DNA from: a virus
Virus record (IMG/VR): IMGVR_UViG_3300046808_001241
Location: 153,183-217,182 of that record
DNA length: 64,000 nucleotides
Direction: 5' to 3' (one strand)
Of this stretch, positions 60,763 through 63,531 are shown in pieces. The notes below the pieces were generated by a model. It worked only from the letters and a program-made list of their open reading frames with translations, was not told the DNA's origin and made no database searches. The first letter of the stretch is position 1; each line of letters begins with the position of its first letter. Made by a program: the position numbers and the translations under genes.

Positions 60763-61103
60763 CAATTCATTTTTTTTTTGCCTATGAATAAAGAAAAATT
60801 TATAAGACCAACCCATAAAATAATACACGAGAATTTTAAACGATTTCCCGTAGCTAGAATAATAATAAAATAATATCAAAAATAGTAATATAATCTCCAG
60901 AGCAGAGCCCAATTAGCTAAAAATTAATAAAAATTCCCCTGATAACCTTACAGAAATATATTACCAGAATTTTTCCGTAGAAATTTAATAAGTTCTCGAC
61001 GCTAGAAAAGATAAAAAAATAATAACAAAATTGTCCAATAAATTCCGCTTAGCAAATAAAAGAATACTTGTCCTGTCCAATGCTTCAGGAGAGACTAATA
61101 AAG
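60763..61103 (+). other. AT-rich intergenic region, no convincing gene
   Basis: About 340 bases, very A-rich. A 29-codon ORF at 60784-60873 has no supporting feature. Two short segments resemble each other: CGTAGCTAGAATAATAATAA (from 60849) and CGACGCTAGAAAAGATAAAA (from 60999). An upstream region with promoters or an origin is possible. I see no clear promoter. Confidence 0.5.
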
Positions 61104-62166: not shown

Positions 62167-62324
62167 TCACTATTCTTTACTTCATTTGGATTGCATATAC
62201 AGTAACTTCTCTCTCTGTAATTCTTGGGCTGGTTTTTCTCTCGATTCTTGCAAAGGCTGAGAAGAAAAAGAATGATCTAAGGATTCGAGAAATGCTTACA
62301 AAGAGACCGACTGATTCAGAATAG
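62163..62324 (+). CDS. Small single-span membrane protein
   Basis: A 53-residue ORF. MITILYFIWIAYTVTSLSVI continues as a transmembrane span to LSILAKAE, then a basic tail (KKKNDLRIREMLTKRP). Coupled by ATGA to the previous gene. It ends 12 nt before the tRNA. Confidence 0.5.
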   Translation: MITILYFIWIAYTVTSLSVILGLVFLSILAKAEKKKNDLRIREMLTKRPTDSE

Positions 62325-62336
62325 ATTCTCTCTCTC

Positions 62337-62410
62337 GCAGTATTAGTTTAATGGTAGAACGGAGCTCTTCCAAAGCCCAGACGAGAGTTCGATTCTCTCA
62401 TGCTGCACCA
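62337..62410 (+). tRNA. tRNA-Gly (anticodon TCC)
   Basis: A 74-nt cloverleaf including an encoded CCA. The acceptor stem is GCAGTAT/ATGCTGC (one G-U pair), the anticodon loop is CTTCCAA, and the T arm is GAGAG-TTCGATT-CTCTC. One A-C mismatch lies in the anticodon stem. It reads GGA codons, which are common in this AT-rich phage's Gly-rich structural genes. Confidence 0.88.
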
Positions 62411-63180
62411 TTCTCTACCAGAACATTTTCTCTCCCTTCTCTCTACACTCTTCTCTCCCGAAGGACAGATCAACAGTTTACACAGCTCTTGATTCTCAAT
62501 ACTTTACATCAGTTCTAACAAAAAGAACAACAACAAGTTACAAACTGTCCCAATTCTTATAAAGCTTTTCAAATCAACAAGTAACGTAAACCCTTTAAAG
62601 CCAACGAGCTACACAAGATAAAATCTATATACCCCTGAGTAACAAACCTTGAAAGAGATTGATCTCTCGTTAGCCCTGTCCTTGTTTTTGGTCATCCGAG
62701 GCTCGCTGACCTTTTCCGAATATGATTCTATCTTCAGAGCTTTGGTTGGACAAGTCACCAAGAATTTTGGGGCCTTTAAGTCTCACTCAATGACTTTTTC
62801 GGTTAGGTGGCGCTGTGGACATAATCCCCCCGTGGACCCTTTTGAAAGGGTTGGGAGGATTATTTGACACTTCAATACTTTTCGTATGAGTCTGTATGCC
62901 GCGTAAGGTCTTTCGACCGTAGTTCTTCAGATTACTTCTAATCAACGACTCTGGTTCCTATATCATCGATTCGAACTACTCCCCACATTCGGAACGGGTT
63001 TTCATTCATTCAGATTTGGTTAGCTAGCAGTCCACTCCTACACTCCAGACAAGAGCTTATAGTGGATGTTGTTTAACGAGTGACGTTCTCATTGAGTCCT
63101 TTGACTCGAACCAAACTATTCGTTGATGGTCGTCCTAACTCGCTTCAACCATTACAGTTAAAGCTTTATGTTCATATTTT
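62411..63180 (+). ncRNA. Candidate large structured noncoding RNA beside tRNA-Gly
   Basis: About 770 bases without a credible gene but with GC-richer islands and many local stems: AGAGA/TCTCT (62654-62667), GGTCA/TGACC (62690-62711), GGTC/GACC around 62907-62918, and GAGTC-CTTT-GACTC near 63094-63107. The longest is a rod, ATAATCC-CCC with GGG-A-GGATTAT, capped by ACCCTT-TTGA-AAGGGT (62821-62863). A 72-codon plus-strand frame at 62649 looks accidental. Its size and its position next to a tRNA in a phage recall GOLLD- or ROOL-type RNAs, but I cannot align it to either. Exact ends are unknown. Confidence 0.5.
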
Positions 63181-63225
63181 ATTTATCTATTTCCTTGAAA
63201 TTTTTTTGAATTATTGTATGTTTTG

Positions 63226-63233
63226 TATAAATA
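63226..63233 (+). promoter_or_regulatory. Perfect late promoter octamer TATAAATA
   Basis: T4 geometry places transcription start at 63239/63240, the first base of a perfect 14-bp stem. Confidence 0.65.
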
Positions 63234-63239
63234 ATTTTT

Positions 63240-63311
63240 GCTCCAGTACAGAGATTATTCTTTAAACTCGCTTTAAGGCTTTATGTTCACCCTCTGTACT
63301 GGAGCTTTTTT
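63240..63311 (+). ncRNA. Candidate 72-nt stem-loop RNA, element 2, upstream of bS21
   Basis: GCTCCAGTACAGAG (63240-63253) pairs perfectly with CTCTGTACTGGAGC (63292-63305) and is followed by TTTTTT. The 38-nt loop contains a second hairpin, CTTTAAA-CTCGC-TTTAAGG. It has the same stem and loop lengths as 30782-30853. It is either a free late RNA or a terminator/attenuator in the bS21 leader, since the bS21 ATG comes 17 nt later. Confidence 0.6.
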
Positions 63312-63327
63312 AATAATTAAATTTCCA

Positions 63328-63531
63328 ATGAATTACAATTTTGAAGTCAAAATAAGAAACAACGAGCCGATCGACAGAGCACTGAAAGTATTAAAAGGCA
63401 AGCTTGAATCAGATGGCCTCTTTGATGTAGTCCGTTCGAAGAGATCGTTTGAGACTCCGACCCAAAAGAAGAAGAGGAAACTCAAAGCTGCCCACAAGAA
63501 GGCCAAGCAGGCCAGATCTCGCAGAGACTAG
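63328..63531 (+). CDS. rpsU: Ribosomal protein bS21-like
   Basis: 67 residues from the ATG at 63328; a longer frame from 63283 begins inside the stem-loop and is not used. VKIRNNEPIDRALKVLKGKL and the basic tail QKKKRKLKAAHKKAKQARSR match bS21 (compare the bacterial 'V..nEp.d.ALrrFKr'). bS21 sits near the anti-Shine-Dalgarno end of 16S rRNA in initiation. Phage-encoded bS21 is known in marine phages and probably replaces the host copy to favour phage messages. No AGGAG-like site precedes it. Confidence 0.88.
   Translation: MNYNFEVKIRNNEPIDRALKVLKGKLESDGLFDVVRSKRSFETPTQKKKRKLKAAHKKAKQARSRRD

Follow-up and report, generated by a model that had tools for sequence, protein, structure and literature searches.

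Genomic Context and Coding Content

The stretch of DNA analysed here, referred to as the window, comprises 64,000 nucleotides and forms the end of a phage contig of 217,182 bases. A tRNA-Gly gene and a phage gene for ribosomal protein bS21 are separated in it by a non-coding gap, which extends from position 62411 to approximately 63330 (Table 1). A preliminary description of this DNA had placed a non-coding stretch of about 770 nt after the tRNA; the gap is real but longer, reaching the start of the bS21 gene. The absence of a credible gene, also proposed there, is borne out by a genome-trained hexamer model, whose scores were trained on the long open reading frames (ORFs) of the contig: all frames in 62411-63330 score as non-coding, with one exception. 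This sole non-negative frame, a 38-codon GTG frame, spans the junction of the two elements RNA B and RNA C, and its conservation is precluded by the variable distance between the conserved motifs in the relatives (17, 18, 19, 26, and 29 nt). The premise of near-complete coding density did not hold, as a crude gene call gives 31 gaps of at least 250 nt in the 217-kb contig, some of which contain tRNAs and a tmRNA.

Structured non-coding RNA is predicted in the gap, as had been supposed, but on the minus strand and in the form of two elements rather than one 770-nt RNA. The minus strand of the 920-nt gap folds with a z score of -3.5 (20 shuffles). A plus-strand RNA was considered and rejected, since folding on that strand is close to background both for the 920 nt (z -1.6) and for 62740-63175 (z -1.09). 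The promoters of RNA B and RNA C are both directed to the minus strand. The GC skew is positive in nearby plus-strand genes and mostly negative in the gap, where the AT skew is also negative over much of the length. The hairpin noted earlier at 62821-62863 is present, with 11-nt arms that are 91% complementary, a nested 6-bp stem, and a TTGA loop (inverted repeat I12).

Table 1. Features in and around the non-coding gap, in window coordinates.
Feature	Positions	Strand	Description
tRNA-Gly (TCC)	62337-62410	+	neighbour on the strand opposite to RNA C and RNA B
Possible 3' extension of C or of B+C read-through	62411-62626	-	non-coding
RNA C including promoter	62753-62632	-	small structured RNA element (predicted)
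Sigma70-type promoter of C	62725-62753	-	-35 TTGTCC (62753-62748), N17, -10 TAGAAT (62730-62725)
Predicted transcript start of C	near 62718	-	from the sigma70-type promoter
Conserved core of C	62627-62713	-	match to covariance model R1, 56.5 bits, E 5e-14 (this copy belongs to the building set of R1)
Hairpin P1 of C	62690-62711	-	GGUCAGC / GAUGACC, one mismatch, loop GAGCCUCG (62704-62697)
Pseudoknot of C	62673-62702	-	loop GCCU (62702-62699) with GGGC (62676-62673)
3' part of C	62640-62672	-	UAAC (62672-62669) / GUUA (62643-62640) enclosing hairpin AGAGA-UCAA-UCUCU (62667-62654)
RNA B (candidate)	62740-63175	-	436-nt closed multibranch fold; contains hairpin 62821-62863
T4-like late promoter of B, GATAAATAAAA	63177-63187	-	RNA B would start right behind, near 63172
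Divergent T4-like late promoter TATAAATA	63226-63233	+	faces bS21
Rod hairpin, start of bS21 leader	63240-63305	+	14-bp perfect stem (inverted repeat I2)
Phage ribosomal protein bS21	63331-63531	+	Pfam PF01165, E 1.8e-16

RNA C and Its Relatives

Eight metagenomic phage contigs were found to carry RNA C, with ten copies in all, and several of these contigs are apparently only distantly related. The first relatives were obtained from a search of 50 viral records reached via two proteins of the phage. One contig, G004, gives a single clear DNA match to the window copy, in reversed orientation (41 nt, 88%, E 8e-9). A second relative, G002, has another piece in common, located near its contig end, and G002 and G004 match each other at 71% over 94 nt. 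In these three copies, the loop GAGYCUCG is constant, while the stem of P1 is formed by different sequences: GGUCAGC/GAUGACC in the window, GGU/ACC in G002, and AAGAGU/ACUCUU in G004.

Further relatives were sought by scanning 2.9 million viral contigs with the pattern CTCGRN{5,21}CAGGRCKAACRRGA, which returned 109 stretches, mostly due to chance, and among them five further contigs carrying true relatives. The similarity of these five to RNA C extends well beyond the scan pattern (BLAST to G002 down to 3e-13). Because the scan fixed CTCGR and CAGGRCKAACRRGA, the five contigs found with it are in part bound to be constant at these positions; the bias does not extend to position Y16, the stem, the promoter, or the 3' part, nor to two of the G052 copies, which number three in that contig. 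A scan with ATCTTGTGTAGCTCGTTG yielded, besides G002, unrelated GC-rich contigs only. The covariance model R1 scores members at 56-82 bits, the building members matching by construction, versus at most 20 bits for everything else in the records and loci searched, and the matches at or below 20 bits (L150, L163, L175, L200, and L230) were attributed to chance by the look of their sequences. No homologs of RNA C were detected by blastn in 50,697 phage records (INPHARED) or in 72,556 plasmids (PLSDB), nor were any seen in seven jumbo or T4-like phages, the last search having been run without a positive control. A single exact pattern scanned against prokaryote genomes gave no match.

Where their proteins can be named, the carrier contigs are tailed phages, with terminase and sheath proteins in G055 and ribonucleotide reductase (RNR) and a tail fibre in G052. 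The gene neighbours of RNA C differ between carriers. The tRNA next to the gap in the window lies on the other strand, and a tRNA is no constant companion of the relatives. Two carriers show additional features. G052 (loci L264-L268), a phage contig of 86 kb, contains RNA C three times, a bS21 gene, and 24 predicted tRNAs. In G051, two near-identical copies of TTGAGAATGARTCTCA, resembling a regulator box, directly follow RNA C (L146:9935-9985).

Fold and Promoter of RNA C

All statistics described in this section refer to a sample of only ten copies, three of which come from one contig. RNA C is laid out as a hairpin with loop GAGYCUCG, which pairs with a downstream CAGGRCKAAC to give an H-type pseudoknot, followed by one or two hairpins. 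The complementarity of the stem around the loop, summed over the ten copies, is 98 versus 43.9±7.3 for shuffled sequences, the highest value in 2000 shuffles being 72. Its mean is 9.8 when the flanks come from the same copy and 6.1 when they come from different copies. In the window, the 5-bp pairing GGUCA/UGACC of P1 has a p value below 0.001 against its own shuffles; P1 is poor in L146.

In alignment A1, 85.7% of the cells are paired, compared to 80.5±1.2% after shuffling and at most 53% when the alignment is slid. Covariation on A1 amounts to 0.193 versus 0.104±0.020, with none of 500 shuffles as high and a sharp drop upon sliding; since relatedness alone can exceed shuffles, the slide control carries more weight. 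The pseudoknot pairing between loop GYCU and downstream GGRC is possible in all ten copies and is picked unprompted by RNAalifold. Within it, Y16 and R46 form a C-G pair in eight copies; in the other two (G004 and L146 of contig G051), whose 3' forms differ, the pair is U-A. The fold also contains an invariant U-G pair, and the inner hairpin of the 3' part is paired in 92% of the cells of the alignment.

Two forms of the 3' part can be distinguished. In type 1 (window, G004, G054, and the three G052 copies), the sequence continues in a manner similar to GAAGGUUnGUUAGC and can close AAC/GUU, and in type 2 (G002, G051, G053, and G055) it continues CCGAGGGUAGGG...CUGCCC and can form GGUAG/CUGCC. 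In the window, similarity of the following 62411-62626 to G002 and G004 is only short, and no clear terminator is recognized there by sequence on the minus strand. Some copies resemble the 790 loop of 16S rRNA (GCGAACAGGA); this likeness was dropped because the window copy lacks it.

Promoter boxes resembling TTGnnn-N17-TATAAT occur in all ten copies, with a summed score of 89 versus 67.1±2.7 in shuffles. Taken alone, the window promoter has a p value of 0.024, and those of G004 and G053 are weak on their own. The -10 box ends 20-24 nt before the loop, which places P1 where the transcript is expected to begin.

RNA B and the Leader of the bS21 Gene

RNA B would start directly behind a T4-like late promoter. 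In this phage, the GATAAATAA motif is strongly concentrated ahead of ORF starts: of its 21 occurrences in the contig, 17 precede such a start by 8-45 nt, whereas permuted motifs do so in 6 of 37, 3 of 44, and 1 of 22 cases. The minus strand of RNA B folds at -124.4 kcal/mol (z -3.28), none of 100 shuffles being as low. In a 25-shuffle test the value is -4.1, which none of 110 random windows of the same length reaches, 4 of the 110 being at -3.29 or lower. A search for homologs of RNA B returned only the promoter and short chance pieces, and its fold is therefore single-sequence evidence. The chances that RNA B is a real RNA are considered to be about even. Putative RNAs that follow late promoters in G002 and in G004 were tried as relatives of RNA B and discarded, showing neither similarity to it nor an unusual fold. 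Two late promoters of G004 are each followed by a stretch of approximately 300 nt in which no clear gene is seen (L134:8135-8490; G004:22374-22090); the first stretch folds ordinarily.

A divergent TATAAATAA at 63226 is directed at the bS21 gene, so that two late promoters stand back to back, at 63187 (minus) and 63226 (plus). The bS21 leader opens with the rod hairpin, whose loop sequence complements the 5' end of RNA B, with a duplex energy of -32.6 kcal/mol versus -12.8±3.2 kcal/mol for random windows. This complementarity consists of two collinear direct repeats of 17 and 12 nt (D2 and D3): the start of RNA B (63174-63136, minus) is partly repeated in the rod loop (63254-63292, plus), and the divergent late transcripts would be complementary there. 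It may reflect antisense control or may be a mere trace of local duplication. In the former case, RNA B would pair through its 5' end with the loop in the leader of bS21, the divergent late gene, and might tune bS21 synthesis, making RNA B a possible antisense regulator; control of bS21 by RNA B is nevertheless a tentative proposal, on the unlikely side. The complementarity suggests a concrete, hypothetical way in which RNA could control a ribosomal protein that a phage encodes.

Functional Interpretation

Comparison of the ten copies indicates that RNA C is very probably a structured RNA gene, representing a new family of pseudoknotted small phage RNAs. The possibility of a new class, raised at the outset, is supported by relatives with complementary but non-homologous stems, by the covarying pseudoknot, and by a promoter at fixed distance. 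RNA C would be read from its sigma70-type promoter as a small RNA of the minus strand, its 5' end folding as an H-type pseudoknot in which the stem is free in sequence and loop GAGYCUCG pairs with CAGGRC, and one or two hairpins would follow. Since several large phages, apparently distinct from one another, carry it beside different genes, it most likely acts in trans, possibly by binding a conserved host or phage factor via the GAGYCUCG/CAGGRCKAAC core. Candidate RNA B, known in this phage only, would be transcribed from its late promoter and would be able to read into C. The joint reading, in which RNA C is a standalone trans-acting small RNA and RNA B a late, lineage-specific fold possibly tuning bS21, is regarded as fairly probable. 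Its homology, complementary stems, covariation, promoters, and complementarity to the leader are computational results; transcription and its timing, action in trans, factor binding, and control of bS21 are inferences.

Alternatively, RNA C could be a cis-acting leader, a riboswitch or attenuator of the following gene. This would suit the position of the pseudoknot where the transcript is expected to begin, one G052 copy that closely precedes a plausible gene, and another G052 copy after which come a hairpin and T run resembling a terminator and, beyond these, an ORF. However, at least five copies (window, G002, G051, G053, and G054) have no plausible same-strand gene close downstream, and, combined with the differing neighbours, this makes a leader quite unlikely and a trans role the likelier inference. 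Of similarly low probability is a single long late RNA of the minus strand, approximately 760 nt in length and comprising B and C, which would resemble GOLLD in having a variable 5' part and a conserved 3' domain, in self-assembling, and in being made at lysis. The late promoter ahead of RNA B and the lack of a clear terminator between B and C are compatible with such a transcript, but RNA C has its own promoter at equal spacing in the relatives and in G002 and G004 occurs without RNA B, folding of the full 765 nt (z -1.6) shows no gain over that of the separate parts, and the Rfam GOLLD model gives no match. It is very unlikely that RNA C is a DNA element such as a recombination, replication, or packaging site: its inverted repeats, its location at intergenic gaps, and the three copies in G052 could be read in this manner, but the promoter lies at a fixed distance, and the pseudoknot pairing and the invariant U-G pair suit RNA rather than duplex DNA. 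Finally, that the gap is simply the untranslated 3' part of a plus-strand tRNA operon, terminated by the rod at 63240-63305 with the rest folding by chance, is hardly credible despite the upstream genes and tRNA on the plus strand and the TTTTTT after the rod, as the plus strand folds close to background, the TATAAATA at 63226 points to the rod as the beginning of the bS21 transcript, and relatives keep the minus-strand features.

The preferred reading of RNA C as a standalone trans-acting RNA can be extended further. RNA C might found an RNA class of unrelated large phages whose pseudoknot captures a host factor, coupled in this phage to an RNA B that controls bS21 by pairing, so that the two would constitute an RNA-based switch of host translation; this extension is speculative and unlikely as a whole. 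Phage-encoded structured RNAs are already known as a broad kind, and it is the family of RNA C that is new. To our knowledge, few structured RNA families common to phages have been described, and their functions are mostly open. With its small size, clear promoter, and definable pseudoknot, RNA C lends itself to preparation and study as an isolated RNA, and the question of what phage structured RNAs bind thereby becomes approachable.

Comparison with Known RNAs and Phages

Membership in GOLLD, ROOL, OLE, or HEARO, which the preliminary description had considered, is not supported: with Rfam 15, none of the four reaches the gathering score in the window, and none appears up to E 5 in 62300-63400 on either strand. 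The loci in G002, G004, and G051-G055 likewise give no match to these four families up to E 1. At gathering score, Rfam finds nothing but tRNAs and a tmRNA across the window, the loci of RNA C, and most of the contig, and no weak match is credible.

RNA C is similar to GOLLD and ROOL in that these are phage-encoded, structured, and often near tRNA genes, but it differs from them in a core of only about 90 nt, its own sigma70-type promoter, and its occurrence without RNA B. GOLLD has a conserved 3' part and a variable 5' part and rises at lysis (PMC12286853). This layout resembles the succession of RNA B, which has no homolog, and the conserved RNA C, although the latter has its own promoter and stands alone in the relatives. 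OLE RNA binds ribosomal protein bS21 as part of the OLE RNP (PMC12054373), and the phage gene for the same protein adjoins RNA B here. However, OLE is approximately 600 nt long and found mostly in Bacillota, and the link at the present locus would be base pairing with the bS21 leader rather than protein binding. The abstract of a report on freshwater phages (PMC9723584), which mentions no RNA, describes large phages with bS21 lying among terminase and capsid genes and expressed late along with structural genes, the predicted hosts being Bacteroidetes. Compared to that description, bS21 here adjoins RNAs B and C, and the promoter of RNA C is sigma70-type. The binding of bS21 by OLE and the late phage bS21 serve as parallels to our reading, not as tests of it.

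Two minor observations were made in this phage group. At contig positions 24603-25036 (L120:4603-5036), a tmRNA whose predicted tag is unusually long (33 residues, AEDNTSDLLAEAEYIFNNADEFLAGVEEYELAA) lies beside a tRNA array. In addition, GGACAG(N)TCAA / TTG(A/T)GC(T)GTCC pieces recur in short intergenic gaps (L108:6500-7560; window 61030-61100) and are possibly the promoter motif of another gene class.
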